Below the pieces are notes generated by a model. The model worked only from the letters and a program-made list of their open reading frames with translations, was not told the origin of the DNA and did no database searches. Shown piece after piece: positions 627 through 19,421 of a DNA stretch of 64,000 bases (positions are counted from its first letter, which is position 1; each line of letters opens with the position of its first letter). This DNA is from Paenibacillaceae bacterium (GTDB lineage Bacteria; Bacillota; Clostridia; Lachnospirales; Lachnospiraceae), in contig SVDU01000002.1 of the NCBI GenBank assembly GCA_015057705.1, positions 62,001 through 126,000 on the forward strand, given 5' to 3'. A program made the position numbers and the translations under genes.

Positions 627-652
627 AGGCCGTTTCCTTTCTCCTTCAAATG

Positions 653-693
653 GAAAATGTGCACCAAAGACATTTTCATGCTTTTATGCACAT
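653..693 (-). promoter_or_regulatory. Competing hairpins between livJ and livH
   Basis: In the 88-bp livJ-livH gap, GAAAATGT (653-660) pairs perfectly with ACATTTTC (670-677). An overlapping ATGTGCA (657-663) pairs with TGCACAT (687-693). The two stems share bases, so only one can form at a time. There is no long U-tract. This may be a processing or partial-attenuation signal that lowers livH expression relative to livJ; function is inferred. Confidence 0.45.
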
Positions 694-714
694 CTCCTGA
701 TTGTCTTTTTAATA

Positions 715-1929: not shown

Positions 1930-1980
1930 ATTCCCATCCTCCTCATGCTTTTTTTGTTATATAAAACGGTTTTTTGTCAA

Positions 1981-2020
1981 ACAAAAAGAGGCTTTCCCGC
2001 TAAATACTGGGGAAAACCTC
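1981..2020 (-). terminator. Terminator/attenuator hairpin in livJ leader
   Basis: On the minus strand GAGGTTTTCCC (2020-2010) pairs with GGGAAAGCCTC (1998-1988), one G-U pair, with an 11-nt loop, followed directly by TTTTTGT. This is a canonical intrinsic terminator about 60 bp upstream of the livJ start and inside its predicted leader, so it probably works as an attenuator. Confidence 0.6.
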
Positions 2021-2064
2021 CTTGTTCTCCAAAAAGAAACTGGGATGCTTTAAGTAGACATCAT

Positions 2065-2111
2065 GTCTCAAAAAGCAAAAGAAGCCGCAACTGCATTCTT
2101 GCAGTTGAGAC
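2065..2111 (-). promoter_or_regulatory. Nested hairpin in livJ leader
   Basis: CAACTGCA-AGAA-TGCAGTTG (2107-2088) forms a perfect 8-bp stem followed by a U-rich stretch. An outer pairing GTCTCAA/TTGAGAC (2111-2105 with 2071-2065) partly excludes it. Together with the downstream terminator-like hairpin this resembles an attenuated leader. I could not match it to a named riboswitch class. Confidence 0.4.
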
Positions 2112-2143
2112 TCCATTGTTCTCTCGCTTTATATGTTGGGAGC

Positions 2144-2179
2144 ATTATACCACTTGCAGGTAAAAAGCACAAGTGGTAT
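2144..2179 (-). promoter_or_regulatory. livJ promoter with overlapping dyad operator
   Basis: On the minus strand TTGTGC (2172-2167) and TATAAT (2149-2144), preceded by TGG, are separated by exactly 17 bp. A perfect 10-bp inverted repeat, ATACCACTTG/CAAGTGGTAT (2147-2156 and 2170-2179), spans the -35 to -10 region, so it looks like a repressor operator. The transcript would start near 2137 and have a leader of about 200 nt. Confidence 0.6.
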
Positions 2180-2200
2180 TTGGGTTTTTTCCATACAAAA

Positions 2201-3418
2201 CTATTCGTTACCGTGATGACCATACCCCTCTATATTATAAGAGCAGGGAATGAAACATGAAAATGTAATCAGCAGAAACAGCACCATAGCATAAACAGAG
2301 GAAAATAGAAAAATAATCACAAGTAAAAACAGCAAAATCCCGATTCCAATCCGTATCACGATATGAGGAATGAGTTTAAAACCACTTGCCAGTCCCAGAA
2401 CGGCATTCCCGATAAACATGGTATTTGCAATTCCTACAATATTCTGAAATGACAGAATTCCAGAGGCATGAAGAAAGAGTACCAGATAATTCACCGCCAG
2501 AAGCATAAGGGCTGTCAGCCATTTATGGTGAAATATTTTGGGTAACCCAACGTTTTTAAACCGAGTCGCAGTCTGGCGCACAACTGCCCCTGTAAAAGTT
2601 GACACAGTACAGATACAAAGACCTGCAGCCAGCCCGGAAAAGACTGCTCCTGAAAATCTGCCTGCGACTGGTATTAATAGATCAGGCATGGAATGACTGG
2701 GGCTGTTTTGAAATGCGAAAGCAGTCAGCAGATATACCAGAATAATTGCTGTCAGACTAATCTGCATGGCACGCATCATGGTACGTTTGGGATTTTCCAC
2801 ATCCTCCACATAATTTCCCAGTATCTCCCAGCCCACAATCGCCCAGAATATAAGAAGAAGCGTCTGTCCCAAGACCTCCGGTGCCGGCAGGCTGTGGGGA
2901 ATCGACAGATCGGGTAAACGAAACAGAGTCGCACCGCTTCCAGCAAGCAGCAGGCAGGCTGTGATACTGGATAATACCAGCATAAATTTCCCCATAAAGG
3001 AAACATCCGATATAACAATCATGGCACAAATAAAAAGTACCCCTCCGGCTATAACCCATGGATTTACGTGAAAGACAGAGGTAACAGCCGGCCCAATAAA
3101 CTCTGCCGCAGTAATTGCCACTGCAACAGGACCAAAAAAGACCGCTACCGTAAGGTAATTGGCTGCAAGTGTTCCAAATCTGCTGCCAAACATATCCCCG
3201 ACAATGGTACTGATTCCCCGGTTATCTGATGCAATTATTGTCATCTTTGCAAAGACATAGGCAAATAAAATATTAAGTGCCATAATAATGATCCATGCAA
3301 AAATCGCATGCTCACCCAGCATTTCATAAGCCAGAGATGGCAGAAAGATAATGCCGGAGCCCAGAATCGGCCCGGTCATCAGCCCACTTACCGTAAATAC
3401 ATTTAATTTTTTCTTCAT
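2201..3418 (-). CDS. APC-superfamily amino acid permease/exporter (YjeH-like)
   Basis: Polytopic membrane transporter of the amino acid-polyamine-organocation superfamily, about 405 aa from the chosen start. The N-terminal MTGPILGSGIIFLPSLA segment is the APC TM1 glycine-rich unwound helix, and about 11-12 hydrophobic helices follow. Overall it resembles the YjeH methionine/branched-chain exporter group more than importers. I chose the ATG at 3418 over 3451 because GGGAG lies at correct spacing and MKKKLNVF precedes TM1. The divergent LysR gene probably controls it. Substrate unknown. Confidence 0.8.
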   Translation of the reverse strand: MKKKLNVFTVSGLMTGPILGSGIIFLPSLAYEMLGEHAIFAWIIIMALNILFAYVFAKMTIIASDNRGISTIVGDMFGSRFGTLAANYLTVAVFFGPVAVAITAAEFIGPAVTSVFHVNPWVIAGGVLFICAMIVISDVSFMGKFMLVLSSITACLLLAGSGATLFRLPDLSIPHSLPAPEVLGQTLLLIFWAIVGWEILGNYVEDVENPKRTMMRAMQISLTAIILVYLLTAFAFQNSPSHSMPDLLIPVAGRFSGAVFSGLAAGLCICTVSTFTGAVVRQTATRFKNVGLPKIFHHKWLTALMLLAVNYLVLFLHASGILSFQNIVGIANTMFIGNAVLGLASGFKLIPHIVIRIGIGILLFLLVIIFLFSSVYAMVLFLLITFSCFIPCSYNIEGYGHHGNE

Positions 3419-3477
3419 ACAAACACATCTCCCTTCCATCGCATTTATCATAATAAAAAATCAAGCATTTGTATAAT

Positions 3478-3520
3478 TGAAGTTACTAAAGATTGACTTC
3501 AGAATAATTGATGATAAAAT
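3478..3520 (+). promoter_or_regulatory. LysR-type operator and lysR promoter
   Basis: The divergent gap contains the dyad TGAAGT-N12-ACTTCA (3478-3501), the usual size of a LysR recognition site. Overlapping it is a plus-strand promoter TTGACT (3493-3498), N16, TAAAAT (3515-3520). The arrangement suits an autoregulated LysR that also acts on the divergent permease gene. Confidence 0.6.
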
Positions 3521-3571
3521 AATGATAACAGGATTATGAAATGAAATAACATCTGGAAAGGGCGATGAGAT

Positions 3572-4453
3572 ATGATTGAGATACGTAATTTAAGAACGTT
3601 GGTTAAAATAGCAGAGCTTGGCAGTTACACAAAGGCGGCTCAGGCTCTGGGATATGCCCAGTCTACTCTGACCTTCCAGGTAGGTGCCATTGAATCCTAC
3701 TATAATTGTCCTGTCTTTGACCGGACTGGTAAGACGCTGAAGCTTACTGCGTTTGGAGAGCAGCTGCTGGAATATTCTAATTCGGTGTTACGGGAGTACG
3801 ATAATCTGGAACAGTTGGGAAAAAGCGATGCCATTCCCCAAGGCTGCTTACGGATCGGGGCCCCTGAATCCCTGACACTGTATCGTTTGTACCCGCTTAT
3901 CATTGCCTATAAATCGGCTTATCCACAGGTGGAGGTTCGTATGATCAACAGCCCGTGTGAGCTGCTGATAAAAGATTTATCCGCCGGACAGCTGGATATC
4001 AGCTTTGTACTTCAGCCCGAGTGTATGGATGAGAATCTGCATACAGAACTGCTTTTGGAGGAGAAAATGTGCCTTGTTGCTCCCGCCGGTCATACACAGC
4101 CAGACTTTTTGCCCGAATCCGGGGAAATGGTGTTCTATACAGAAAAGGAATGCAGCTATCGTCAGGAATTTGAACGATACTTGCAAAAGCACCACTATGT
4201 CCCTACCAATGTACTGGAAACAGCCAATGTGGAGGCAATCAAAAAATACGTAACCAACGGCCTGGGAGTTTCCTATCTTCCCTATTACACCGTGAAATCA
4301 GAAAGTGAAAGCGGATTAATCCGCACAAAATTCATTGAAACAGACCCTGTTTTTTTCACCCAGATTGTGTATCATAAAAAGAAATGGATTTCTCCAGCCA
4401 TAAAGGCACTGATAAATCTCAGCCGCGAATATGGCCAGAAATGGTCCGTCTGA
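3572..4453 (+). CDS. LysR-family transcriptional regulator
   Basis: 293 aa. N-terminal winged HTH (residues 1-60, IRNLRTLVKIAELGSYTKAA then ALGYAQSTLTFQV), linker helix, and a type-2 periplasmic-binding-like effector domain (about 90-290). Start ATG 3572 follows GGAAAGGG. It is divergent from the APC permease and shares its 120-bp promoter region, so it is the likely regulator of that transporter. It converges with the acetyltransferase gene 10 bp downstream. The effector is not predictable. Confidence 0.92.
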   Translation: MIEIRNLRTLVKIAELGSYTKAAQALGYAQSTLTFQVGAIESYYNCPVFDRTGKTLKLTAFGEQLLEYSNSVLREYDNLEQLGKSDAIPQGCLRIGAPESLTLYRLYPLIIAYKSAYPQVEVRMINSPCELLIKDLSAGQLDISFVLQPECMDENLHTELLLEEKMCLVAPAGHTQPDFLPESGEMVFYTEKECSYRQEFERYLQKHHYVPTNVLETANVEAIKKYVTNGLGVSYLPYYTVKSESESGLIRTKFIETDPVFFTQIVYHKKKWISPAIKALINLSREYGQKWSV

Positions 4454-4463
4454 CTTTCACTGA

Positions 4464-4988
4464 TTATTGAAACTCCGATTTTAAAATCCCATATTCATAG
4501 GTATCTTTCCATATGGGATTGCCGTCCTCATCAGTAAAAAAATATACATTTTTAAGCAATGTCCCCTCTCTTCTCATCCCCACTCGCTCAAGCAGTTTCC
4601 AGGAATTAGGATTCTGGGGATCACACATTGCAATCATTCTTCTTACACCAAGCTCATGAAAGCCATATTTCATCAGTGCCAGAAGTCCTTCTGTGGCATA
4701 CCCCTTCCCCCAGTACTGATCATTGAAAACATAACCCACTTCCCATGTTTCAAATTCTTCTTTTGCAAAATAGAAATTACCGATGAGTTTTCCGCTTTTT
4801 AAGCATACAGCAAGAAACCGCTCATCATCAGCCCGCCTTTTTGCTTCTGAGTAAGATTTTTCTCTTGAATATGGCTTGTATGGTTCAAACTCCAACACCT
4901 TTGGATTAGAAAAATACTCATACAAATCTTCCCCGTCATTTTCTGTAAACTTACGTATCACCAATCGGTCTGTTATTATTTCCTTCAT
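4464..4988 (-). CDS. GNAT-family N-acetyltransferase (RimJ/RimL-like)
   Basis: 174 aa, full length for the family. It starts with the RimJ/L signature TDRLVIRKFTENDGEDLYEYFSN. The acetyl-CoA pyrophosphate loop region reads YWGKGYATEGLLALMKYGF, and RRMIAMCDPQNPNSWKLLERVGM follows. It transfers acetyl from acetyl-CoA to an amine, typically a protein N-terminus or a small molecule; the target is unknown. It is monocistronic, convergent with the LysR gene and separated by about 100 bp from the broken EFR1 gene. Confidence 0.9.
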   Translation of the reverse strand: MKEIITDRLVIRKFTENDGEDLYEYFSNPKVLEFEPYKPYSREKSYSEAKRRADDERFLAVCLKSGKLIGNFYFAKEEFETWEVGYVFNDQYWGKGYATEGLLALMKYGFHELGVRRMIAMCDPQNPNSWKLLERVGMRREGTLLKNVYFFTDEDGNPIWKDTYEYGILKSEFQ

Positions 4989-5091
4989 ATAAATTCCCCC
5001 AGTTTTTCAGTTAATGTTACAAATATGTATTATACAGCAATATTCCTGAAATTAAAAAGACTTTGTGACATTGCTGCAAGCAATGGCACTT

Positions 5092-5677
5092 TTACCGGCG
5101 CATAAGATCTTTTACTTCAACATAAGGGTTCCTGTACCTCTGTTTTCCTTCCGACATGTTTCCGTATTGAACAGCCTGCCTGGGGCATAGGTTTAAGCAC
5201 GAAAGACACATCTCACACTGCATGGTACTCATGGGATTTAACTGCCGAGACGATCTCCCGGACTTTCTTCTCCATTGAGTCAAAAAGTTTTTTTTCCTCG
5301 TTTGTTTCATGCAACAATATCATGTTGGTAGGCATGATTATAGAATAACCTGCTGAAAGTTTAAGACCTCTTGCCCCCAGCATTCTGCGTGTAAGTACCA
5401 AAGCTCCGGCTACCCTGCCGCCATTGGTAGCAACGGCAAAAAAATATTTACCCTTAATATCAGATGACAGATGTTTTATAAACTGCTTAACCACATTTGG
5501 CAAGCCAAACGCATATACAGGGAATACAAGGCCAATATTGTCAGCTTTCAAAAGTGCTTTTTTCTCACCTTCAGCCTCAATGGGAACGATTATCGTATCC
5601 CCAAGCAGATCCCCGATCCTTCTGGCACAGTATAGAGAATTTCCTGTCCCTGTAAAATAGTAAATAATTGTTGACAT
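5092..5677 (-). pseudogene. EFR1-type flavodoxin/4Fe-4S ferredoxin, internally deleted and frameshifted
   Basis: The 5' part (5677-5213) encodes a flavodoxin-like domain beginning MSTIIYYFTGTGNSLYCARRI with the FMN phosphate loop TGTGNS. The 3' part, in another frame (about 5235-5092), encodes one 4Fe-4S motif, CEMCLSCLNLCP, and the family tail KQRYRNPYVEV. EFR1 proteins normally have about 260 residues and two CxxCxxCxxxCP clusters. Here about 60-70 residues, including the first cluster, are missing and the frame changes at 5213-5240. A functional two-cluster ferredoxin cannot be made; only a flavodoxin-like stub could be. Confidence 0.8.
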
Positions 5678-5716
5678 CTTAATTATTCTCCTTTTTCAAA
5701 TCTGAAATCCGTCCGC

Positions 5717-7183
5717 TTATTTCCCATCTGCCTGCAGGTTTGAAAGCGATGCCGGTTCAGATTTTTTATACACGGTCAGGAACAGGGTAGGAATCACTGA
5801 CAAGATTGTAAAGCCAACTGACCACCAAAAAGCAACATTGTACGCACTTACAACATTCTGTATTCCCGATGCAGAGTGGCTGGCTAACTGATGCTCTACA
5901 ATTGTTGCAAGAACTGCAGATCCGAACGCACCTCCAATTGTCTGCAGTATTCTTGTGGCAATGCTGGCATGAGGAATCTGCTCACTGTTCAGTCCCACAT
6001 AGGCAGAAACCATAAGCGGAATGAATACTCCGCCCAGACCAGCCCCCCGTATCAGCAGCGCTGCACCTAACAAAATTGCATTTGTTCCGGAATCAGCAAA
6101 CGCAAATGGCAAAGTACCCACCGCTGTGATGATAAGGCTTACCATAACAATGGGACGCGCTCCTATCCGGTCAGTCAGTTTTCCCATCTGGGTTCGTGTT
6201 AGCAGCATTCCAACGCCCTGAGGTATCAGCATAAGTCCGGCGTATAGAACACTTTCACCACGTACCTGCTGATAGAATAGCGGGAGCAGGAGCATACCGC
6301 CATTGGTGATAATACCTGACATGAAAAGCAAAACAGACGTAGCAGAAAAATTGGTTGATTGAAACAAATGCAGATCAAGCACTGGAGATATTTTCGTATT
6401 TAAGGCGTAAAAAATAAATGCAGCCATTACAAGCAGCCCTGTTACTATGGGAACAAATACTGCACTGCTGTTTAATCCACCATGAGAAGCTATCTGTGCA
6501 ATGCCATAAATGAGCAAAGCAAATGCCGGGGACAGCAGTAAAATACCAATCATATCAAGAGGCTGTTTTTCCTCTGCTGGACTGTCCTCTGGTATTCCCC
6601 AAAAAGACAGTAATGCAGCGATGATAGTCACCGGAATATTGACATAAAAGATCCAGCGCCAGCCCAGACTGTTGACTATAATTCCTCCAAGTACCGGTCC
6701 CAGAATCGGTGCTAACAGCATGGGAAGGCTGACAATTGATGCCATATGCCCAATATTTTTACCTCCTGATATCTGAACCAGCATGTTTGTCATGGTCGGC
6801 ATCAATAAACCTGCGCCAATTCCCTGAAGGAGCCGAAAACCGATCAGAGTTCCTATATTCCATGACAGTGATGAAAGAACGGAACCCACCAAAAATAAAA
6901 TCAATGAAAATTCATACAGACGCTTACCACCAAACCGATTAATGGCCCAGCCGGAAACGGGAACTGCAATTGCCATTGCAAGCACATATCCCGTGATGAC
7001 CCACTGTATAACGGAAACCGTACTTTTAAATTCACCTGCAATTGTTTTTATGGCCACATTGACCATTGTAGAATCCAATAGCGGTGCAAGAGAACCAAAT
7101 ACCAGGATTATTGATACCTTAAGCATCATCGGATCAAGCGTATCTTTTTGCTTCCTGGAATCATTTGCTATATTTTCTGCCAT
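5717..7183 (-). CDS. DHA2-family MFS drug:H+ antiporter (EmrB/QacA type)
   Basis: 488 aa with about 14 predicted hydrophobic helices, the DHA2 size. Motif D1-like LDSTMVNVAIKTIAGEF in TM1, motif A-like NRFGGKRLYEFSLILFLVGS after TM2, and motif C-like LLAPILGPVLGGIIV in TM5 are visible. It exports hydrophobic or cationic compounds using the proton gradient. ATG 7183 has AAGGAGG upstream. The divergent TetR gene and intervening dyad indicate drug-inducible repression. Confidence 0.92.
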   Translation of the reverse strand: MAENIANDSRKQKDTLDPMMLKVSIILVFGSLAPLLDSTMVNVAIKTIAGEFKSTVSVIQWVITGYVLAMAIAVPVSGWAINRFGGKRLYEFSLILFLVGSVLSSLSWNIGTLIGFRLLQGIGAGLLMPTMTNMLVQISGGKNIGHMASIVSLPMLLAPILGPVLGGIIVNSLGWRWIFYVNIPVTIIAALLSFWGIPEDSPAEEKQPLDMIGILLLSPAFALLIYGIAQIASHGGLNSSAVFVPIVTGLLVMAAFIFYALNTKISPVLDLHLFQSTNFSATSVLLFMSGIITNGGMLLLPLFYQQVRGESVLYAGLMLIPQGVGMLLTRTQMGKLTDRIGARPIVMVSLIITAVGTLPFAFADSGTNAILLGAALLIRGAGLGGVFIPLMVSAYVGLNSEQIPHASIATRILQTIGGAFGSAVLATIVEHQLASHSASGIQNVVSAYNVAFWWSVGFTILSVIPTLFLTVYKKSEPASLSNLQADGK

Positions 7184-7219
7184 ATTAAAACCTCCTTAAA
7201 ATAAGAACTTTACTTTATC

Positions 7220-7232
7220 CAACAATCTGTTG
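7220..7232. promoter_or_regulatory. Candidate TetR operator
   Basis: CAACA-ATC-TGTTG, a perfect short dyad, lies in the 138-bp gap between the divergent exporter and TetR genes, about 40 bp from the exporter start. It is the best inverted repeat in the gap and so the likely repressor site; the regulator-site pairing is inferred. Confidence 0.4.
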
Positions 7233-7321
7233 TATTATCATATTGTAATGAGACTACGATTTTTCATCAACCGACAATCATAATTTATTTGTTGGATTTT
7301 AAAAGGCAAGGGGGAATTTTT

Positions 7322-7876
7322 TTGATAAAGCAGCCTGAAATCACAATGCAGACCAGAAAAAACTTAGCAGATGCGTTTTGGCAGATCTACTGTGAAAAAC
7401 GAATTGAAAAGATTACGGTTAAGGACATAACAACAAAGGCAGGTTATAACAGAAGTACATTTTATGAGTATTATACAGATGTCTACGATGTGCTGGAGCA
7501 AATTGAAGCCTCTGTATTACCAGATATTGAAAGACACAAAAAAATGATACCGAATGGGAGCATGCAATTTCCACTAAAACATCTTGTGGAAGTGTATAAT
7601 AAAAACAAGCAATATTTTATTGTCCTTTTAGGAAAAAACGGGGATCCGGCCTTTCAGGAAAAGATGAAAAATACATACAAAGACCTGGTACGCCCCATGG
7701 TACAATCGTATGAATCAGATGATTACAAATTAGAATGCAGTCTGGAATATGCCATGTCCGCTATCATTGGAGTGATGACGTATTGCTTTACAAGGGAAGA
7801 ACAACCTGATATTGAAAAAACGGTTGTGCTTCTCAATGACTTTATGAACAATGGTGTAATAGGGCTGCTAAAGTAA
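7322..7876 (+). CDS. TetR/AcrR-family transcriptional repressor
   Basis: 184 aa from the TTG at 7322, chosen because AAGGGGG lies seven bases upstream; an earlier in-frame TTG at 7289 has no ribosome site. The N-terminal HTH reads KITVKDITTKAGYNRSTFYEYY (residues about 28-50), diagnostic of TetR, followed by an alpha-helical ligand domain. It is divergent from the DHA2 exporter, the classical pump/repressor layout, and probably represses both genes. It ends in the terminator that forms one copy of the island-flanking repeat. Confidence 0.9.
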   Translation: MIKQPEITMQTRKNLADAFWQIYCEKRIEKITVKDITTKAGYNRSTFYEYYTDVYDVLEQIEASVLPDIERHKKMIPNGSMQFPLKHLVEVYNKNKQYFIVLLGKNGDPAFQEKMKNTYKDLVRPMVQSYESDDYKLECSLEYAMSAIIGVMTYCFTREEQPDIEKTVVLLNDFMNNGVIGLLK

Positions 7877-7952
7877 ATAAGAAAAATGGGCAAAATCAGG
7901 CCACCCCCCTGATCTCTGCCCATTTTTTATTTTCTCACAACGCCTGGAACCC
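7876..7952. repeat. Direct repeat copy A (island left boundary)
   Basis: This 77-bp stretch is identical, apart from one C in a homopolymer, to 10586-10663. It contains a bidirectional terminator (AAAATGGGCA...TGCCCATTTT, 7882-7927). Read on the minus strand it also contains the last codons (RVPGVVRK-stop) of the response regulator intact at 10638-11324. It is therefore a displaced duplicate of that gene's 3' end, as left by integration into a gene terminus. Confidence 0.85.
7882..7927. terminator. Terminator of the TetR gene (inside repeat A)
   Basis: Outer stem AAAATGGGCA/TGCCCATTTT with inner ATCAG/CTGAT pairing around a C-rich loop, flanked by A- and T-runs so it can work in both directions. 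It lies 5 bp after the TetR stop codon. Confidence 0.8.
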
Positions 7953-8096
7953 ACAAAAAATAAAGTATAAGGTATTTTCAGTATCCTGCATTTGTTCATT
8001 TGAATACCCAGATGCATAAATGTTGGTTGGAAAAAATACAAAAAACATAGTTGCTGCCAATAGGCAGGTAAGTTTAATTATGGAAAACTTTTTCAA
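7935..8096 (-). pseudogene. 5' remnant of a secreted-protein gene (signal peptide plus about 15 residues)
   Basis: A TTG at 8096 overlaps the TGA stop of the M56 peptidase gene (TTGA) and follows AGGGGGG, so translation would be coupled. The product has 53 codons: KKF, a hydrophobic core LTCLLAATMFFVFF, cleavage-like NIYASG, then YSNEQMQDTENT. The last few codons run out of frame into the duplicated response-regulator tail of repeat A. The gene was therefore cut by the repeat junction near 7953. It probably encoded a small exported peptide governed by BlaI/M56, possibly related to the product at 9934. Confidence 0.6.
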
Positions 8097-9238
8097 GGTT
8101 TACCCCCCTCGTTTATTATTTTCAAATGCTTTAGACTATCATCGATCACTGAAATAGTAGCTATTATCTCTCCTTGCTCGTTGTAAAGATCATAACCTGA
8201 ATCTGTCTTTACAAAATAATTTTCACTTGATATTTCAGTCATATTTCCGTAATTCTGTATACTTGGCTCGCTGTAGGGTTGAATAACAAAGGTATATGAC
8301 AGCATAAGCAAAAAAAATGTAATTGGAATAAGCATTTTACTTCTTTGTTTCTTAATTTTTGAATAATTACTTTCAAGTAACATTTTAAATCGTTGTTCTA
8401 GTCGATCGCTTTTCGCTTCTTCAACTAAGCAACAAGTTAATATAGATTTCTTTTGACTTTTTTCCTGATTTTGTATGACTTTAATTATTGCATTTAAATA
8501 ACACATTTGTTGCTGACTATTTAAATAATAACTCACTTTTTCATCAGAATGCATTTCTAAAGTGTGTTCCACTTCCGAGTTGAAATATCTAAAAAACGGG
8601 TTCCACCAAAATATTGTCTGAATAATATCACAAATACTTTTGATTATTACATGTCTCTGATGGTAATGCTGCAACTCATGTAATAAAACTCCAAATAATT
8701 CGTCGTCAGTGAAGTTTATATCTGGAAGAATTATGATTTGTGATTGAAAGCCCACTATTGCCGGTGTCCTTATGCTTTTGTCCACTATTATTTTTATGTC
8801 TTTTCTTATTTCAATAAGGTTTTGTATTTTTTCTAAGGTTAATTTCACGCGTTGATCTTGACAGGCTGGAAAAATACTGAATATATTATATAATCTTCTA
8901 TACTCACTTATCTTAATGCAGAATTTATATAATGCAATTCCTCCACTTATTAGAATCAGAATTGCTAATACGTTAATAGTAATACCTTTGACGGAAATAA
9001 GAGGATAAGTTAGTACATATTGTATAAAGGGCAATAAGTTTTTAGATCTGATAATTTGAGTATAGAATAGTTCTGTTGGCAAAAAGAACCTTATTAAACA
9101 TAAACAAATCAAAAAAAATAAAGGATAAATGGAAAAAGTTCTTAATAAAATCATTTGTCTGCTTAATATTTTAATAACTATTGCAAATATACTTACCCAA
9201 ATAAGTGAAGTCAGGAACGTGAACAATGTTACGCCCAT
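8093..9238 (-). CDS. BlaR1/MecR1-type M56 membrane metallopeptidase
   Basis: 381 aa. Four hydrophobic helices, about three near the N-terminus and one near residue 300, flank a cytosolic zinc-protease domain with HELQH (HExxH) and the downstream glutamate in EHTLEMHSDEKVS. In the BlaR1 family, signal sensing activates this protease, which removes the BlaI repressor. No penicillin-binding sensor domain follows: only about 60 extracellular residues remain after the last helix. The signal is therefore probably not a beta-lactam. It lies 3 bp after blaI and overlaps the following secreted-peptide remnant. Its AT-rich codons differ from the neighbouring genes. Confidence 0.88.
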   Translation of the reverse strand: MGVTLFTFLTSLIWVSIFAIVIKILSRQMILLRTFSIYPLFFLICLCLIRFFLPTELFYTQIIRSKNLLPFIQYVLTYPLISVKGITINVLAILILISGGIALYKFCIKISEYRRLYNIFSIFPACQDQRVKLTLEKIQNLIEIRKDIKIIVDKSIRTPAIVGFQSQIIILPDINFTDDELFGVLLHELQHYHQRHVIIKSICDIIQTIFWWNPFFRYFNSEVEHTLEMHSDEKVSYYLNSQQQMCYLNAIIKVIQNQEKSQKKSILTCCLVEEAKSDRLEQRFKMLLESNYSKIKKQRSKMLIPITFFLLMLSYTFVIQPYSEPSIQNYGNMTEISSENYFVKTDSGYDLYNEQGEIIATISVIDDSLKHLKIINEGGKP

Positions 9239-9241
9239 AAG

Positions 9242-9649
9242 CTAGTCCTCCCTGTATTGGTCTAATAGTTCCTGTAAAACTTCTGCAATTTCCTTTTTGC
9301 ATTTTTTTTTGCCTAAAAGCGTAGATATAAAAGATAAACTATCTTTATCATCTGCCTGATAATATCTATTAAACTGCATAACAGCATATTCATTGGCGGA
9401 TATTGTTGGTCGAAATAGACGACCATAGGACTTTCCGATTTTAGTTATTTCAGCTACTTCGATAGCTTTCTTTTTTTCAAGCGTTCGCAAAGTACTTTGT
9501 ATTGAACTTGAAGGCCAAGTTCTGTTAGGAATTCTTTCTGCAATTTCGGTAGCAGATAAAGGAGTATCTGATGTCCATAGAGCTTTCATAGCAGCTTCTT
9601 CTTTACCTGTAAGAAAAAAACATGAATTCATGCTGTTTTCGGCTTGCAT
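9242..9649 (-). CDS. BlaI/MecI/CopY-family repressor
   Basis: 135 aa from ATG 9649, supported by AGAGG at 8-nt spacing. Winged helix: GKEEAAMKALWTSDTPLSATEIAERIPNRTWPSSSIQSTLRTLEKKKAIE, the BlaI DNA-reading pattern, then a short C-terminal dimerisation region where the paired M56 enzyme would act. It forms an operon with the M56 gene. Palindromes at 9680-9696 and 9783-9803 in the divergent promoter region are its probable operators. Confidence 0.9.
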   Translation of the reverse strand: MQAENSMNSCFFLTGKEEAAMKALWTSDTPLSATEIAERIPNRTWPSSSIQSTLRTLEKKKAIEVAEITKIGKSYGRLFRPTISANEYAVMQFNRYYQADDKDSLSFISTLLGKKKCKKEIAEVLQELLDQYRED

Positions 9650-9679
9650 ATTATTCACCTCTTGTGATTTTTATTAAAT

Positions 9680-9803
9680 TATAATTTAAAATTATAGAAA
9701 AGTCAATTAAAGTCAAAACCATAAATTATAATAAAACGATTTTAATTTTTAAAATCTTTATTGACAAACTAAGTTTACCGTTATATTATATAAATTATAA
9801 TAT
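9680..9803. promoter_or_regulatory. BlaI-type operators and promoter of the plus-strand secreted-protein operon
   Basis: Two dyads lie between blaI and the divergent operon. One is TATAATTT-A-AAATTATA (9680-9696). The other is ATATTATA-TAAAT-TATAATAT (9783-9803). A strong plus-strand promoter TTGACA (9761-9766), N17, TATTAT (9784-9789) has its -10 box inside the second dyad, so repressor binding there would block it. The remaining leader to 9933 is AT-rich and carries AGGGGGG near 9900. Confidence 0.65.
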
Positions 9804-9933
9804 CATAAGTACTAAAACCATAAGAAAGTTGGGGGATTTGAAGGCGAGTCTGGATTCTAGTTGATGTCCAAAGCAGTGAGCGTAAAATAGTACTTTGATA
9901 GGGGGGATTTCATTGTTTTTATGTTAACTTCCC

Positions 9934-10248
9934 ATGGCTTCTGACTATATCTCACCCGGTGGAAGTATCTCACATACTTATACAAAACAAGTTTCAAAAT
10001 CAGCATCCTTCACGGTCGGGGTTGCACCAATAAAGGAAATATCAGCACAGTTAGGATATGGTTCATCAAGTACTTCTACAGTCTCAAAAACTATATCCCA
10101 AAATAACAATACATCAAAAGGAATGTATGTCGATGTATATATAATTTATCAATCATATGATTATTCAGTATATGGCAAACCTTCTGGTGATTATTACGGA
10201 AAAGGAGGTTTTACTGTTGCAACAGGCTTGGGCGTAATAACCAGATAA
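9934..10248 (+). CDS. Beta-rich secreted-protein-like product lacking a signal peptide
   Basis: 104 aa rich in S, T, Y and G with alternating pattern (ISPGGSISHTYTKQVS, SASFTVGV, GYGSSSTSTVSKTISQ, YVDVYIIYQ). It resembles the C-terminal domain of small secreted proteins of Gram-positive bacteria. No signal peptide is present: an in-frame TAA lies 9 bases before the ATG, and the only good ribosome site (AGGGGGG, about 9900) is about 30 bases away. The gene therefore looks 5'-truncated. It follows the BlaI-controlled promoter and precedes a membrane protein, reminiscent of a secreted effector/partner pair, but I cannot assign a function. Confidence 0.55.
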   Translation: MASDYISPGGSISHTYTKQVSKSASFTVGVAPIKEISAQLGYGSSSTSTVSKTISQNNNTSKGMYVDVYIIYQSYDYSVYGKPSGDYYGKGGFTVATGLGVITR

Positions 10249-10263
10249 TGGAAGTAGGTAAAT

Positions 10264-10521
10264 ATGAATAAAATTCCTTTCTACTATATTATATCATTTA
10301 TTTTCGAAGCAATTGGATTCACTTTAATATTAAACTGCTATAATATAGCAGAGTATAAGTTGGATTTAAAGATATTAACAATGCAGAAACTAGATATTCC
10401 ACTTGAATTTAATTATAATTATTTAAATATCATATCAAACAATTATAGAACTGCAGGAATTTTGTTATCATTATTAGGAGGTATTTTTCTAATCAAGATT
10501 TTATTTAGTGGGAAATCATGA
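10264..10521 (+). CDS. Small two-helix membrane protein
   Basis: 85 aa. Hydrophobic segments at about residues 5-25 and 62-82 frame a charged/Asn-rich extracytoplasmic loop. ATG 10264 follows GGAAGTAGG, 16 bp after the preceding ORF, so the two are co-transcribed from the BlaI-controlled promoter. A small membrane protein next to a secreted peptide gene often acts in immunity or export, but no homology is recognised here. The stop codon lies inside the 20-bp palindrome. Confidence 0.55.
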   Translation: MNKIPFYYIISFIFEAIGFTLILNCYNIAEYKLDLKILTMQKLDIPLEFNYNYLNIISNNYRTAGILLSLLGGIFLIKILFSGKS

Positions 10522-10554
10522 CCACCCACTTAGCGGGTGGTCATGATTTCCCAC
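10508..10554. mobile_element. Perfect 20-bp palindrome resembling an IS200/IS605-type end
   Basis: GTGGGAAATCATGACCACCC (10508-10527) and its exact complement (10535-10554) surround the loop ACTTAGC. CCACCC-GCTAAG-like hairpins of this design occur at the ends of IS200/IS605 (TnpB) elements and related palindrome-associated elements. No transposase gene is present. A second small hairpin (GGGTC-AC-GACCC, 10572-10583) lies between it and repeat copy B. It could also serve as the terminator of the upstream operon. Confidence 0.5.
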
Positions 10555-10585
10555 GCTTCCCGAGCTCAACAGGGTCACGACCCAT

Positions 10586-10663
10586 AATAAGAAAAATGGG
10601 CAAAATCAGGCCACCCCCCCTGATCTCTGCCCATTTTTTATTTTCTCACAACGCCTGGAACCC
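10586..10663. repeat. Direct repeat copy B (island right boundary)
   Basis: Partner of 7876-7952. It contains the terminator and the authentic last eight codons plus stop of the response-regulator gene. Identity ends exactly at 10586 on the island side and at about 10663 inside the coding sequence, with weak similarity a few bases further. Confidence 0.85.
10592..10638. terminator. Terminator of the response-regulator gene (inside repeat B)
   Basis: Same hairpin as at 7882-7927 with one extra C in the loop. It abuts the response regulator's TAA on the minus strand and carries T-runs on both sides. Confidence 0.8.
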
Positions 10664-11324
10664 GCAACACATAACCCACACCTCTGACTGTATGAATCAA
10701 TTTTACCGGCTGTCCTTCATCAATTTTCTTTCTCAAATACCGAATGTACACATCAATCATATTGGATTCTCCTCCATAGTCGTAATTCCATATATGCTGA
10801 CTGATCTTTTCCCGGGAAAGCACCACGCCTGTATTACGGATTAAATACTCCAATATGGAGAACTCTTTGGAGGAAAGCGAAATGATTTTCTGATTTCTCA
10901 TCACTCTCCGTGCATCACAGTTTACAATTAAATCACCAACCTCAAATATATTGCTGATATTGCCGTGATACCGCCTTAACATTGCCCGTACTTTCGTAAG
11001 AAGTACTTGTAAGGCAAATGGTTTCAGCAAATATTCATCGACCTGTAATTCCGGATTGGTGCCATGATCGAAAGCAGTATCATCTGCAGTCATCAAAAGT
11101 ACCGGAGTCTTCTTTCCCTGACTTCGTACCTTTTTTAGCAGTTCTATCCCGCTGACCCCTGGAATCATACTATCCAGAATAACAGCATCATAATATTCTG
11201 TCTCCAGATAATCCAATGCGTCAAGACCATTAAGACAGGAATCAACGGTATAATGTTCCAGTTTTAGTTTTCTTACGATCAGCCCATTTAAATCTGGTTC
11301 ATCCTCCACCAATAAGATTCTCAT
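10638..11324 (-). CDS. OmpR/PhoB-family response regulator (orphan)
   Basis: 228 aa from ATG 11324, which has AGAGGAAAG upstream (an upstream ATG at 11345 lacks one). Receiver domain (1-115): acidic pair in LLVEDEPDLNG, phospho-acceptor Asp in AVILDSMIPGVSG, and Lys in YLLKPF. The C-terminal winged helix (about 130-225) ends in SNMIDVYIRYLRKKIDEG and HTVRGVGYVLR. No histidine kinase gene is adjacent, which is unusual; it may have been displaced by the island or lie elsewhere. Its 3' end is the duplicated target of the island. Confidence 0.93.
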   Translation of the reverse strand: MRILLVEDEPDLNGLIVRKLKLEHYTVDSCLNGLDALDYLETEYYDAVILDSMIPGVSGIELLKKVRSQGKKTPVLLMTADDTAFDHGTNPELQVDEYLLKPFALQVLLTKVRAMLRRYHGNISNIFEVGDLIVNCDARRVMRNQKIISLSSKEFSILEYLIRNTGVVLSREKISQHIWNYDYGGESNMIDVYIRYLRKKIDEGQPVKLIHTVRGVGYVLRVPGVVRK

Positions 11325-11445
11325 TGTATGTGTCTTTCCTCTCATTCTTCTGTGCTTTCATTTATGTGTGTATCTTATAAATATTGTATCACATTAATAA
11401 TAAAAGGAATAGGAATTCCTAATGTTTCAGCCTTAGGGCAGGCAG

Positions 11446-12285
11446 TCAGCCAATAATAAAAGGCTCTTTTGCATCAACAAAAATAACAGATTGTGATGGA
11501 AGAATATTTTGCAGCCACCCAGCCAGATGCTTCATACCGGATTCCTCGCTTCTCTCATGACCAATGACAATCATAGACTGGTTAAACCCAAGCATAGAAG
11601 CATCTCTTATATAAGCACTAAGGGTCCATTCAGTTATATCTCCGCATATCACTGTATCTAAATTTTCTCTGCGCACCAACTCCATGGTGTTTTTCTCATC
11701 GCCAAGGCCCAGGCTGCCGCCTCCCACCAGTACTCCGATGCGGCGACAGGTTCCCTCATGATTTCCAAGCACTCTTGCACATTTCACATCCAGAGAATCC
11801 TTTACTTTTATAACCAGATCCTTAAGCTTCATCTCAGGAATCTCATAACACACCTGTGCTTTCACCAGAGGATTTTTCTCCTCTTTTGAGATTTCTTTTC
11901 TTTCTTTATACTCACTCCAGCCCATGTCCTGATCAAATCCCTGATATATCAGGTCATCCGATACTGCATGCATATAATCATGAAAACGCCATATTACCAG
12001 GTGATTTTCTTCAATCAGCTGTTTCTTTTTTAAATAAACCGGATCCTTAATCAGCCATTCTTTTTGATCCCTTCCATTAAACCAGGTTGGTTCATGGGTT
12101 ATAATGAAGTTGGCCCCCAGACTGACCGCCTCTAAAATTACATCAACTGTTGCCATAAACGTTGTTACAATTTTAGTAACCTCCGTATCCGGATCCCCTA
12201 TAATAATCTGGTCCACAGTTTTGACCGGATCCAGAATCACACCAGTCTCCGTGATGATACTGTCAACGATTTCTCTTACTTTCAT
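11446..12285 (-). CDS. Nif3-like dinuclear metal-centre protein
   Basis: 279 aa, Nif3/YqfO (GTP cyclohydrolase I type 2) family. Metal-ligand segments include the FIITHEPTWF motif (HxP variant) and a C-terminal VIGHERSEESGMKHLA. The family forms hexamers with two metals per subunit and has uncertain biochemistry. The ATG overlaps the stop of the PTS gene (ATGA), so it is translationally coupled to the sucrose operon, an uncommon place for this family. A role in sugar-phosphate housekeeping is only a guess. Confidence 0.82.
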   Translation of the reverse strand: MKVREIVDSIITETGVILDPVKTVDQIIIGDPDTEVTKIVTTFMATVDVILEAVSLGANFIITHEPTWFNGRDQKEWLIKDPVYLKKKQLIEENHLVIWRFHDYMHAVSDDLIYQGFDQDMGWSEYKERKEISKEEKNPLVKAQVCYEIPEMKLKDLVIKVKDSLDVKCARVLGNHEGTCRRIGVLVGGGSLGLGDEKNTMELVRRENLDTVICGDITEWTLSAYIRDASMLGFNQSMIVIGHERSEESGMKHLAGWLQNILPSQSVIFVDAKEPFIIG

Positions 12286-14129
12286 AATCCTCCCTCCTGC
12301 TCAACCTGGATTACCGGGTCTTTAAAGGAATCCTGCTCCATTATTTTCACTTCACTAAATTGATCCGTATTTGTTACGATAAGCATCACAGTCGTATCAT
12401 ATCCCGCCTCTTTTACTTTGTCAAACTCCACGCTTCCAATCACCTGGCCAGAGCTGATTTTGTCACCCTCCTTCACAGATATATCAAAATATTTTCCATT
12501 AAGTTCAACCGTATTAATTCCAATATGAAGGATCATCTCCACTCCATAATTGGTCCTCAGACCAATTGCATGCCTGGTAGGGAAGACCGAAACAACCGTT
12601 GCATCTGCCGGTGCGAATATCTCATCACTGACTGGAATCACCCCGATTCCTTTTCCCAATGTGCCTGATGAAAAGACCTCATCGGAAACCTGCCAAAGCT
12701 TAACAACCCTTCCTTTTGCAGGAGCAATCATTGTTTCTTTAAACGTCACAACTTTCTTTAATGAATCCATGTCAGCAGGGGTTTCGGTTGATTTCCCAAC
12801 AAATTCATAGCCAAATACATAAGTCAAAAGAAAAGTTCCGGCAAATGCAACAGACATAGCAATTGCAAAGCTGATTGCCGGAGTATAGGAAGGAATGACC
12901 ATAATGCCTCCTGCCAGCTGAGAAGCGGATATATGGAAAATACCGCAAAGACCACCTGCCACAGCACTCATGGACATGGCATACAGTAACACACGTCTGA
13001 ATTTAAAGAAGATACCATAGATTACAGGTTCTGTAATTCCGGTTAAAAAAGCGGGTACAAATGCAGAAAAAGACAGCTCTTTTAATTTAATATCTTTGGT
13101 TTTTAAGAATACCCCCAGTGCCGCGCCTGCCCCTGCATAAGCAGTCGCCTGAACGGTTGGAAGGAGAAAATCCTGGCCTGTTGTGGATAAATTATTAATA
13201 ATAACAGGAATCAGCGCCCAGTGAAGTCCAAGCATAACCGTAGGAATTCCTATGAAACCAAATACAATGTTTGTAAGAACCGCATTTTTCCCAAGAGCAA
13301 AGGTTAAAACATTGGAAATAAAAGTGCCGGTATAAATTCCAAAAGGACCAAACACAATTAAGGTGATGGGCACTACCAGTATAAGAGACAGCATGGGTAC
13401 AAACAAAACCTGAAATACACCTGGAATAATCCTTTTTAACAGCCGGTCAATAAGAACATAAGTACAGATTGCCAGTATAACAGGGAAAACAGTAGAGGAA
13501 TAATCCATTAGCACCACTGGTATATGCATGAAATTCGTCTTGCCTCCAGCCGCTGTTAAAAGCCGGGTATAGTTTGGCTCTAAAAGTGCTGCTCCTATCA
13601 CACCGGATATGTAAGGATTCACATTCATTCGTGTGCCAAATGTTATTCCCAGAATGATTGGAAGAAAATAAAACACTGCATTTGAGGCAGCTGTTAAAAT
13701 AGCATAAGTTCCTGATGATGACTGCATTATTCCTGCTGCCACAAGAATCTGAAGCAATGCCTTTAACATACCGGAACCTAAAATGGCTGGTATAATCGGT
13801 GTAAAGCTTCCTGAAATTACATTGAAGATCTTTGCTGACAGTTTCTGTTCTTTATCATCTCTGCCATCTCCTCCGCCATTTTCATCTCCTGTCAGTTTTA
13901 TTACCTCTTCATATACATCTTTTACATTGGTCCCGATGACAATCTGATACTGGCCTCCGCCCTTTACCACCTGCATAATGTCTAACTTCTCCAGCGCTTC
14001 TTTATCCGCTTTTTCTTCGTTCTTTAAAACAAAGCGGAGTCTTGTCATACAGTGTGTGAGACTCCTCACATTTTCTTTCCCGCCAATATTCTGGACAATC
14101 TTTTCTGCCAAATTCTTATCGTTCATCAT
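12282..14129 (-). CDS. scrA: PTS sucrose/beta-glucoside transporter, EIIBCA
   Basis: 615 aa, single-chain EIIBCA of the Glc superfamily. EIIB (1-90) has the phospho-cysteine in LTHCMTRLRF. EIIC (about 110-455) has ten or so helices and GITEPVIYG. EIIA (about 475-610) has the phospho-histidine in MILHIGINTVELNG. It imports and phosphorylates a disaccharide. The gene immediately follows a GH32 beta-fructosidase and a LacI regulator, so sucrose (product sucrose-6-phosphate) is the best call; the protein family alone would also allow beta-glucosides or trehalose. Confidence 0.9.
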   Translation of the reverse strand: MMNDKNLAEKIVQNIGGKENVRSLTHCMTRLRFVLKNEEKADKEALEKLDIMQVVKGGGQYQIVIGTNVKDVYEEVIKLTGDENGGGDGRDDKEQKLSAKIFNVISGSFTPIIPAILGSGMLKALLQILVAAGIMQSSSGTYAILTAASNAVFYFLPIILGITFGTRMNVNPYISGVIGAALLEPNYTRLLTAAGGKTNFMHIPVVLMDYSSTVFPVILAICTYVLIDRLLKRIIPGVFQVLFVPMLSLILVVPITLIVFGPFGIYTGTFISNVLTFALGKNAVLTNIVFGFIGIPTVMLGLHWALIPVIINNLSTTGQDFLLPTVQATAYAGAGAALGVFLKTKDIKLKELSFSAFVPAFLTGITEPVIYGIFFKFRRVLLYAMSMSAVAGGLCGIFHISASQLAGGIMVIPSYTPAISFAIAMSVAFAGTFLLTYVFGYEFVGKSTETPADMDSLKKVVTFKETMIAPAKGRVVKLWQVSDEVFSSGTLGKGIGVIPVSDEIFAPADATVVSVFPTRHAIGLRTNYGVEMILHIGINTVELNGKYFDISVKEGDKISSGQVIGSVEFDKVKEAGYDTTVMLIVTNTDQFSEVKIMEQDSFKDPVIQVEQEGGL

Positions 14130-14145
14130 TACACTCCATCCTTAA

Positions 14146-15609
14146 CTATATTCTTAAGTTCCATTTTTGAATTGATGCTTTTACACAACCTTCTCTTGCT
14201 GTAAATACCGTCTCAATACTTGACTTGTCAGGAAATATTCTTAATGAAAAAGAGACCTCTCCCTGATTGATAAAAACCTCTAACGAGGATTCATCAGAAA
14301 AAATACGGACTTCTTTTAACCCGCCTTCCAGCCTGGCCTTACGCAAAAATCCGTAGTCCTCTGCAAACACCTCACCGGAAGCACTTCGGTCTACACAAAT
14401 CATCTTGTCGTTCCTGGAGTACCGGATCATTGTCTTTTCCTGTTTATTCTGTCTTATACTGATCTCAAAAACTCCTGCCGTTTGATCCACGATCTCAACC
14501 AGCAATTCGTAATGTCTGCCATAAAATCTTTTGTCTTCATAGCTTTCGTCATCCATGAGAATCGTCTCATAAACCGGATCACTTCTCATTTGTTCCATTT
14601 CCTTAACCGGATTCTGTCTTAAACGCCCATTTACAACTGTGAGTTCTCTGGGAATTGTCAGGCAGTGGGCCCAGCCATATTGGTCTGTAGGGTATAAAAT
14701 CTCAGGCAGTCCCATCCATCCAAACAATATTCTTCTTCCAAATGGATCCAAAAAGGTCTGCGGGGCATAAAAATCAAAACCATAATCAATTCTCTCATAC
14801 CGGCTTCCATCAAAGGTTAATGTCTCCTCATTCATGGGATTCCCAATTAGATATCCCGTTTCGTAGATATTAGAATTTCCAGGCTCTTCTGTTTCCATTC
14901 CCTGCGGGCACATCATTAAAATGCCATAGCCCTCTGCCTCAAAATAATCCGGACATTCCCACATAAAAGCCTTCGTCTTCCACGGAACTGCCAGCTCACC
15001 TCCATAATCCCACCGTTTTAAATCAGCGCTTTGATAGATTAAAGCCGTACCGGTCTGTGAGATCTTTTGGGCACCGGTTATCATCAGGTACCCGTTCTTC
15101 CCCTTCCACACTTTTGGATCTCTGAAATGCTCTGTGATCCCAGCCGGCGGCTCCGGTATCAGAGGGGTATTCTTCTTTACAATTCTGCCTTCCTGATCCA
15201 TAACCGCCAGGCACTGGCTGCTGTGTCTTACCCAATTATCATCTCTGTGATTACCGGTATAAAACAGGTACAAAAGCCCATCCTTTTCCATACTGCTTCC
15301 TGAATAGACACCATGGCTGTCAGTGCTCTGGTCCGGCGCTAACCCAATCCCTAAGTCCTCCCAGGAAACGAGATCCCTGGAACGTAGATGATACCAGTAT
15401 TTGGTTCCATGAACAGGTCCAAATGGAAACCATTGATAGAATAAATGGTAGAAACCATTGTACCAGGCCAGGCCATTGGGATCATTCAAAAGCCCGGTAA
15501 CAGGCTGTATATGAAAACTTTGCCGCCAGGGACTGTTCTGAACTTTTTTTTCCAGTTCCAAATACTCTTCTTTTGATATAGCATCTAACTTTGTAACACT
15601 TGTTATCAT
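14146..15609 (-). CDS. scrB: Sucrose-6-phosphate hydrolase (GH32)
   Basis: 487 aa. Five-bladed propeller with the nucleophile Asp in FHIQPVTGLLNDPNG (about 36-50), the transition-state stabiliser FRDPKVW, and the acid/base Glu in MWECPDYFEA; a C-terminal beta-sandwich follows. It cleaves sucrose-6-phosphate to glucose-6-phosphate and fructose in the cytoplasm. It is the first gene after the operator-rich promoter at 15632-15699 and lies 16 bp before scrA. Confidence 0.93.
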   Translation of the reverse strand: MITSVTKLDAISKEEYLELEKKVQNSPWRQSFHIQPVTGLLNDPNGLAWYNGFYHLFYQWFPFGPVHGTKYWYHLRSRDLVSWEDLGIGLAPDQSTDSHGVYSGSSMEKDGLLYLFYTGNHRDDNWVRHSSQCLAVMDQEGRIVKKNTPLIPEPPAGITEHFRDPKVWKGKNGYLMITGAQKISQTGTALIYQSADLKRWDYGGELAVPWKTKAFMWECPDYFEAEGYGILMMCPQGMETEEPGNSNIYETGYLIGNPMNEETLTFDGSRYERIDYGFDFYAPQTFLDPFGRRILFGWMGLPEILYPTDQYGWAHCLTIPRELTVVNGRLRQNPVKEMEQMRSDPVYETILMDDESYEDKRFYGRHYELLVEIVDQTAGVFEISIRQNKQEKTMIRYSRNDKMICVDRSASGEVFAEDYGFLRKARLEGGLKEVRIFSDESSLEVFINQGEVSFSLRIFPDKSSIETVFTAREGCVKASIQKWNLRI

Positions 15610-15631
15610 AAATTACCTCAACTTCTCCATA

Positions 15632-15699
15632 TTGGAACCGGTTCCAAAAATGGGTGAAATTATAAGGAACGATTTCGTTTTTGGAACCGGTTCCTTATA
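15632..15699 (-). promoter_or_regulatory. scr operon promoter with two LacI/ScrR operators
   Basis: Palindrome TTGGAACCGGTTCCAA at 15632-15647 and a second GGAACCGGTTCC at 15683-15694, about 50 bp apart, bracket a minus-strand -10 TATAAT (15664-15659). A third dyad TATAAGGAAC/GTTCCTTATA (15661-15670, 15690-15699) overlaps. The centre-CG dyad is a typical LacI-family site; the adjacent LacI gene is the likely binder, by looping or double occupancy. Confidence 0.75.
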
Positions 15700-15716
15700 A
15701 TTGAATTTTACTTCTT

Positions 15717-16703
15717 CTATTGTGGTTTGTCAACACTATTACGTTCAATTAATTCATATGGTGAAACGATTACTTCTTCCGTTTTTTCATGTTCTAATAA
15801 CTTAAGGAGACTATTTGCTGCAATGCCCCCGGCCTCTCTGAAGAAAAACTTAACCGTCGTAATTCCAGGATACACCAGATCAGTAATTTTATCTCCACCT
15901 ACTCCCACAATTGAGATCTGCTCCGGGACTTTTACATTAAGAAGACAGCAGGCTTTTAACACTCCTACTGCAATGTTATCGGTTGCGGCAATAATGGCAG
16001 TCGGCTGATTTTTTCCCCTAAGAATTTTCTTTGCCATAATCACAGCATCCTGGTAAGAGAATGAAGTTTCTTCTATATTAAGAGCTATGTTTTCATATTC
16101 TTTGGAAGCTTTTATCACGCCCTGTTTCCTTTTTATACCAACCGATACATCTGTCTCAGGAATTCCAAGATATGTGACCAACCGATGGCCTTTCTGGAAA
16201 ATATAATTACCCAGGCAATACCCCGCCTCATAATCGTCATGAATCACACTGGGGACACCCGCCACCTGCTGACCGATCACAACGATGGGGATTGAAATCT
16301 CATCAAAAGCTTTTTTATGCTTATCCGTGATTACCGTGGCAGCCAGAATAATACCGGAAACCTTCTGTTTTGCCAGAGAATAAATGCTTTCAATCTCTCT
16401 GTCAATCATTTGATTGGTATTGGAAATAATCATCTGAAATCCATTCAGCTGCAACACATCATCAATGCCAAGCAGTGTTTCCGACATGGCATTGGAATTA
16501 AGCCTTGGAATAATCACTCCAATAATTTTTGTCTTTTTTGCCTTTAAGCTCTGGGCAAACTGATTGGGGGAGTAACCGGTTTTTTTGATGACTGCTTCTA
16601 TCCGCCTGGCTGTTTTTTCACTGACAGATCCCTGATTTAAATACCTGGATACAGTGCTTTTGGCAACGCCGGACATTTCTGCTATTTCTTTAATACTTGC
16701 CAT
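15717..16703 (-). CDS. scrR: LacI-family repressor of the sucrose operon
   Basis: 328 aa from ATG 16703; upstream in-frame codons overlap the neighbouring intergenic DNA and lack the domain. LacI HTH at the N-terminus: ASIKEIAEMSGVAKSTVSRYLNQGSVSEKT, then the PBP1-like effector domain with IGVIIPRLNSNAMSETLLGIDD. It lies directly upstream of scrB, whose promoter has two GGAACCGGTTCC sites, so it probably responds to sucrose-6-phosphate or fructose. Confidence 0.88.
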   Translation of the reverse strand: MASIKEIAEMSGVAKSTVSRYLNQGSVSEKTARRIEAVIKKTGYSPNQFAQSLKAKKTKIIGVIIPRLNSNAMSETLLGIDDVLQLNGFQMIISNTNQMIDREIESIYSLAKQKVSGIILAATVITDKHKKAFDEISIPIVVIGQQVAGVPSVIHDDYEAGYCLGNYIFQKGHRLVTYLGIPETDVSVGIKRKQGVIKASKEYENIALNIEETSFSYQDAVIMAKKILRGKNQPTAIIAATDNIAVGVLKACCLLNVKVPEQISIVGVGGDKITDLVYPGITTVKFFFREAGGIAANSLLKLLEHEKTEEVIVSPYELIERNSVDKPQ

Positions 16704-16731
16704 AAAAAGTTCCAACTTTCTGCTTGGTAAA

Positions 16732-17898: not shown

Positions 17899-17915
17899 AC
17901 TCTTGTCCTCCTTCC

Positions 17916-19199: not shown

Positions 19200-19212
19200 G
19201 GCTCCACTCCTA

Positions 19213-19264: not shown

Positions 19265-19267
19265 ACA

Positions 19268-19296
19268 ATACTAACACGCTAAGCGATAGAAAGCAA
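19268..19296 (-). promoter_or_regulatory. Promoter of the AlbA/HipA-like operon
   Basis: Minus-strand TTGCTT (19296-19291), 17 bp, TAGTAT (19273-19268). Transcription would start near 19261, so the mRNA leader is essentially the GATAGAAAA array. Confidence 0.5.
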
Positions 19297-19421
19297 GAAT
19301 AACCAAATAACAAATTGTGACAAAAGAAATGTAAATCCAGCCCAACTATGATATGATAAATAAATAATAATAACCACACTTCCTATCCCAAACACACCCG
19401 CATAAACAAGGAGGCACTTTT

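Follow-up and report, generated by a model that had tools for sequence, protein, structure and literature searches.

A terminator duplicated around a small gene cassette between convergent genes: joins that look more like scars of local DNA copying

This study concerns a stretch of 64,000 nucleotides (nt) of a draft genome (GCA_015057705.1, contig SVDU01000002.1, positions 62,001 to 126,000; hereafter the window), in which two convergent regulatory genes are separated by accessory DNA. The left gene encodes a TetR-family regulator (7289..7876, + strand; open reading frame (ORF) list and Pfam), and the right gene, which is intact, encodes an OmpR-type response regulator (RR; 10638..11345, − strand; Pfam). 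Between them, two nearly identical copies of a 77-nt sequence enclose an AT-rich segment of about 2.6 kb. Long direct repeats at the 3' end of a gene are commonly read as a sign of integrase action, and an earlier note on this DNA described 7876..10663 as an accessory island integrated into the 3' end of the RR gene. The repeats and the insert are real, but the island so drawn also takes in a separate 72-bp IS200-type mini-element (10514-10585). We consider the locus an instructive but ordinary rearrangement, whose joins look more like the scars of a local DNA-copying accident.

Copy A of the repeat (7876..7952, 77 nt) and copy B (10586..10663, 78 nt) differ by one C in the C run of a hairpin loop, and the base directly beyond either repeat end is not the same in the two copies. 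A search of the own genome with the 77-nt sequence returned two matches only (E ≤ 0.001), namely copies A and B. Copy B contains the last eight codons and the stop codon of RR plus a hairpin terminator, and it is the true RR 3' end (repeat comparison, genome search, and hairpin folding); copy A has the same eight codons with no RR gene attached. On the repeats themselves and their RR codons, direct comparison agreed with the earlier note. Copy A starts on the third base of the TetR stop codon (7874-7876); therefore, the 77 nt constitute a terminator common to the convergent TetR and RR genes. The place of copy A beside TetR is the native one, as a single copy lies between TetR and RR in nine relatives. 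Hairpin folding gave z = −4.2 for copy A on the + strand (0/200 shuffles as stable) and z = −2.8 for copy B on the − strand (3/200).

RR and its terminator were searched for in 116 genomes, including the own genome (G000), a 36-contig draft of about 4.53 Mb with the window on contig C26. Relatives' genomes are designated G001 and so on, L marks a fetched locus, and w marks a coordinate in the window. One genome per species was used, and some were incomplete (e.g., G011, 67%; G005, 82%). A match was found in 20 genomes. Nine of these, besides the own genome, were of the same genus and matched over at least 705 nt with 77-94% identity (G003, G004, G005, G010, G016, G018, G019, G020, and G023). 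The genus of the relatives was taken as Lacrimispora; they include Lacrimispora xylanisolvens, L. defluvii, and L. amygdalina. TetR and RR meet at one terminator without an insert in 9/9 of the RR-carrying relatives, and the window therefore holds a real insertion. Loci L107 and L109, with TetR relatives but no RR match beside them, were left out of this count. The empty RR/TetR junction that the earlier note had proposed to look for is thus present in every relative with RR, and the shared arrangement that it had named as a refutation is false. No other island, including the longer ones with the same 77-bp boundary that it had envisaged, stood at this site in the nine. As an observation apart, a second response regulator (about 74% DNA identity) stands at the w2231 position in G023 (L036:4066-4751), G003 (L037:4500-5187), and G004 (L038:11166-11851).

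At the left joint (7953..7974, + strand; genome search), copy A is followed by six bases, by a 16-nt patch (7959-7974), and then by the cut first gene of the insert. The patch is identical to w17309-17324 (+ strand), inside a HipA-like ORF (16732-17898; HipA_C at 30.4 bits, just under the Pfam cut-off of 30.5) that lies 9.35 kb from the joint. The 16-mer occurs exactly twice in 4.53 Mb, both times on the + strand, and a reversed-pattern control gave 0. Among 150 fetched loci it was present in nine, all of G000 and none from other genomes. Two controls were set against the 21-nt joint segment, which matches over 15 nt (16 with the next base). When 600 random 21-nt segments of the island were compared with w11346-20000, no match exceeded 14 nt, a length reached once (1/600); a second set of 600, compared with the window outside the island, again gave at most 14 nt (6/600). 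Of the 24 other genus genomes, some of them incomplete, G018 gave a partial match (67%) to the HipA-like gene and the remaining 23 gave none; this distribution suggests that the event took place within the own lineage. Template switching is expected to leave a small templated patch where it joins sequences, and here 16 nt are found at two places in the genome. An integrated island is expected to have defined ends and intact cargo genes, whereas the left edge of this insert bears the patch and truncates its own gene 1, which is whole in G019 and G017. Separately from these results, the HipA-like gene matches PADLOC PDC-M03A models (best 7e-18), and the Schlafen/AlbA_2 protein encoded by w17916-19199 is matched by Argonaute-associated models of PADLOC (best 1.2e-10).

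Five genes make up the insert. Gene 1 (7935..8096, − strand), for a small secreted-type protein, is cut by the left joint and can be read from a TTG over about 53 aa, compared with 83 aa in G019 and G017. Genes for an M56 (BlaR1-like) membrane metallopeptidase (8093..9238, − strand; PF05569, 1.8e-23) and a BlaI-like repressor (9242..9658, − strand; PF03965, 7.6e-11) come next. Gene 4 (9934..10248, + strand; 104 aa) is without its N-terminal half. It is whole in G019 (212 aa) and G017 (205 aa), with a signal-peptide-like start as judged by eye, and 374 bp of the G019 cassette have no counterpart in the window, at 9922/9923. Gene 5 (10264..10521, + strand; 85 aa; ORF list and comparison with relatives) encodes a small membrane-type protein, and its last codons run into the mini-element. 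With gene 1 cut and the N-terminal half of gene 4 gone, the window cassette is worn.

The insert is single-copy in the own genome. Its GC content is 0.29-0.34 in 500-base windows within 8001-10500, compared with 0.38-0.49 in most windows of 1-7000 and 10501-16750. The earlier note had called it AT-rich and unlike its neighbours; the low GC content holds, but it is shared by the stretches of TetR (7001-8000; 0.35-0.37) and HipA/AlbA (16751-19500; 0.32-0.39). No recombinase was found among the four insert ORFs scanned, which bears out the reported lack of an integrase. The insert may well be a chromosomal cassette, in which the genes for a secreted-type protein, M56, and BlaI face those for a second secreted-type protein and a membrane protein, rather than an integrating element. 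A phage or plasmid element was considered and rejected: 2.5 kb of this DNA was unmatched in a plasmid collection, and the intact 212-aa protein of G019 was unmatched in phages. Viral contigs gave no confirmed relative. The 212-aa protein was matched in 2/397 genomes drawn from the family (the own genome and G017), and is carried by G019 and G020 too. A defence function was also rejected, as the five cassette proteins (genes 1, 4, and 5 in their G019 form; M56 and BlaI from the window) were without a PADLOC match at E ≤ 0.01.

The cassette was matched in 6/25 genus genomes, the own genome included. The window cassette genes are 94-97% identical to those of G019, comparable to TetR (94.0%) and RR (94.5%). 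In G019, the cassette stands beyond RR, next to w19322, and most of w11416-19240 is absent there. The G020 cassette, from which most of M56 and BlaI is missing, is placed between w16726 and w19328, and G018 has a remnant at the w19300 site. The window itself has a cassette-free version of this site (19296..19330; comparison with relatives), as do G016 and G003, with closely similar sequence. G001 carries a distant version of the cassette (68-69% DNA identity). In G017, the cassette is located at a tRNA-Lys gene and is flanked by 97-bp repeats (96%) that comprise the 3' end of the tRNA and sequence downstream of it; G024 has one copy of this repeat, and G021 has other DNA between two copies. 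In the tRNA-Lys (ctt) island of G017 (L089:5818-10577), no integrase was noticed among the listed ORFs, and none was searched for. The DNA just past gene 5 in G019 (L034:6975-7250) is unlike that of four other cassette copies compared.

The mini-element (10514..10585, − strand; 72 bp) was recognized by its end sequences, with the left end at 10585 and the right end at 10514. It has no transposase and lies just 3' of the T-tract of the copy B terminator. Fuller copies are present in relatives. A Y1 transposase ORF was found in the three whose ORFs were listed, and the transposase of one fuller copy matched NF033573 (2.8e-45) and PF01797 (9.3e-39). The right end is present in 5/6 fuller regions inspected and absent at that offset in L093. 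The left-end flanks of 12/13 loci, all except L064, fold as terminator-like hairpins (≤ 1/200 shuffles as stable), and copy B beside the mini-element folds as a hairpin with 0/200 shuffles as stable. The mini-element has, then, Y1-type left and right ends and, like other copies, lies 3' of a terminator-like site. Landing 3' of terminators is suggested by the 13 flanks analysed here; passages of PMC9208149 list IS200 among the families over-represented between convergent genes and make no mention of landing 3' of terminators. The own genome has one Y1 transposase (L097, G000:C10:24859-25215, contig C10), whose flanks are unlike the mini-element ends, and the end sequences had no match elsewhere in that genome.

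The bases flanking the mini-element read as a native gene 5 end, as in G018, meeting the terminator start, with AAATAA common to both. The right joint under the mini-element can thus be read as a 6-nt microhomology, AAATAA. The mini-element, taken as a later insertion, would account for the disguise of the right joint, not for the island. Its inner hairpin extends six bases into the gene 5 end, forming a near-perfect palindrome (10508-10554) with 23-nt arms. A known RNA at the palindrome was rejected, the one match, to a miRNA, scoring 22.6 bits, far below the cut-off of 86.

The explanation that we prefer, although we put it no higher than an even chance, is that microhomology-mediated template switching copied the cassette into the shared terminator of the convergent genes and duplicated the terminator. 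During replication or break repair, synthesis would have passed from TetR across the shared terminator and reached the last eight RR codons. It would then have left its template, copied the 16-nt patch out of the HipA-like gene (w17.3 kb), and moved to a cassette, at the w19.3-kb site that it occupies in relatives, copying through the end of the last gene. A return to the terminator start would have been made through the 6-nt overlap AAATAA. Re-entry upstream of the exit point would have produced a second copy of the terminator and RR tail, leaving an end to each of the convergent genes. The 72-bp mini-element would have been inserted afterwards, 3' of the copy B terminator, and the donor cassette would later have been lost. 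One path with three switches, conceivably a single event, would account at once for the patch and cut gene on the left, the overlap on the right, and the doubled terminator. The duplication at the insertion site is copied from local sequence, as in template-switch insertional duplications. In addition, copies A and B are one C apart, and the terminators of the six closest relatives differ from both in 5-18 of 85 columns and those of three other relatives in 23-32 of 85. A precedent is the model of microhomology-mediated break-induced replication (MMBIR; PMC2621351).

Several points weigh against a template switch. Only one terminator column is private to A and B relative to all nine relatives; the argument from shared own variants therefore rests mainly on overall closeness and is supportive, not decisive. 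At w19300, the window looks like G016 and G003, which are cassette-free there, and not like a newly deleted locus; the donor may therefore have been a different allele. The cassette and the HipA-like gene occur together at one place in no genome searched, and the donor arrangement is therefore one that we infer. The same cassette is the cargo of an att-type tRNA island in G017. The reading of AAATAA as microhomology reaches across a later insertion and depends on the gene 5 end of G018. At the left joint, where no microhomology is clear, the first 6 nt have no explanation, and 7953-7963 still resembles copy B at 8/11, so the exact left breakpoint is uncertain.

The main rival, which we hold to be possible but clearly less probable, is a relic of tandem duplication formed in two steps. 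A duplication from the RR terminator through the cassette, with its joint at AAATAA, would have come first; the first RR copy would then have been deleted except for its last eight codons, and the second cassette copy lost. The final gene order would be the same. G019 and G023 moreover hold an older displaced RR tail with terminator, 65-71 nt long and 77-87% like the real RR terminators, between RR and w19240 (L034:3752-3817 and L036:14441-14508). In G023 this tail lies between an operon with molybdopterin-dehydrogenase domains (Pfam) and the AlbA gene end, and part of that stretch is also present in G016. Stubs of the RR tail have thus arisen here on earlier occasions, the RR 3' end having been left behind at least twice in the group. 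Recombination with the older tail was itself rejected, given its distance from the RR terminators as against the one C that separates A from B. The two-step course, however, needs a duplication of 11-12 kb (counted on the window, with the cassette assumed to lie at w19.3 kb) and at least two deletions, one of which must leave 16 nt of the HipA-like gene between two breakpoints; the left joint, too, shows no RR remnant beyond the eight codons.

Site-specific integration, in which an element with its own RR-tail att site entered the RR 3' end and has since lost its integrase, appears improbable. It would agree with the long direct repeat at a gene 3' end, the AT-rich content, and the empty site, and the same cassette does lie between the tRNA-Lys repeats of G017, single in G024. 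Yet a cassette gene is cut at the left boundary, which also bears a patch of host origin; copies A and B, one C apart, are more alike than the island repeats of G017, at 96%; and in G017 the cassette has the reverse orientation with respect to the intact gene. The G017 repeat and copy A have only 7-nt matches in common (blastn, word size 7). None of the 11 tyrosine-integrase matches in the genome is on contig C26 (serine recombinases were not searched), and all nine relatives are empty at the RR site. From the earlier claim of integration we therefore keep the insertion into a once-single RR 3' end and terminator and find the site specificity not well supported, given the cut gene 1, the patch, the microhomology reading of the right joint, and the near-identical copies. 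Carriage of the cassette by IS200-type transposition is very unlikely. The left end of the mini-element abuts copy B exactly, but both ends lie within 72 bp; the cassette is therefore outside it, and a role as mover was rejected. IS200-type elements are not known to make a target duplication, and among the five other cassette genomes, G020 alone matches the mini-element, on other contigs. An assembly artefact, which a 36-contig draft might suggest, is the least probable of all: the two copies are not identical but one base apart, the insert occurs once in the genome, the later mini-element stands at one copy only, and a 77-bp repeat is shorter than the usual read.

If template switching is the origin, the locus shows how a copying accident could yield att-like geometry. 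The cut cargo gene, the host-derived patch, and the near-identical copies are details that help to separate such an accident from integrase action, and they warn that repeat geometry alone is poor ground for calling integrase-less islands decayed mobile elements. A wider idea, which we regard as rather doubtful, is that strong terminators of convergent genes are hot spots of template switching, through which accessory genes could enter without a recombinase and leave 3' end duplicates that mimic att sites; on this view, G019 and G023, with their older displaced RR tail and terminator, would provide a second, independent case at this gene.

Three known systems bear comparison. Like the IS200 group of the IS200/IS605 family, 10514-10585 has left and right ends and a terminator-side landing site; unlike them, it is only 72 bp and without a transposase. 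Like tRNA-integrated islands such as that at the G017 tRNA-Lys, the window locus has long direct repeats, made of a gene 3' end with its terminator, that enclose accessory genes, and indeed the same cassette. The G017 island differs in that its repeats are at a tRNA and 96% alike, a site with other DNA exists in G021, and genes 1 and 4 are whole. Template-switch insertional duplications, described under fork stalling and template switching (FoSTeS) or MMBIR, are known from complex human insertions with templated insertion, microhomology, and duplication at the insertion site, as passages of PMC5120786 report, and template switching was inferred for amplification in starving Escherichia coli (PMC3161906). 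The present case differs as a bacterial allele whose mechanism is read from sequence only. It resembles them in its insert, presumably copied from nearby, in its small templated patch and possible microhomology at a joint, and in the duplication of its landing site.

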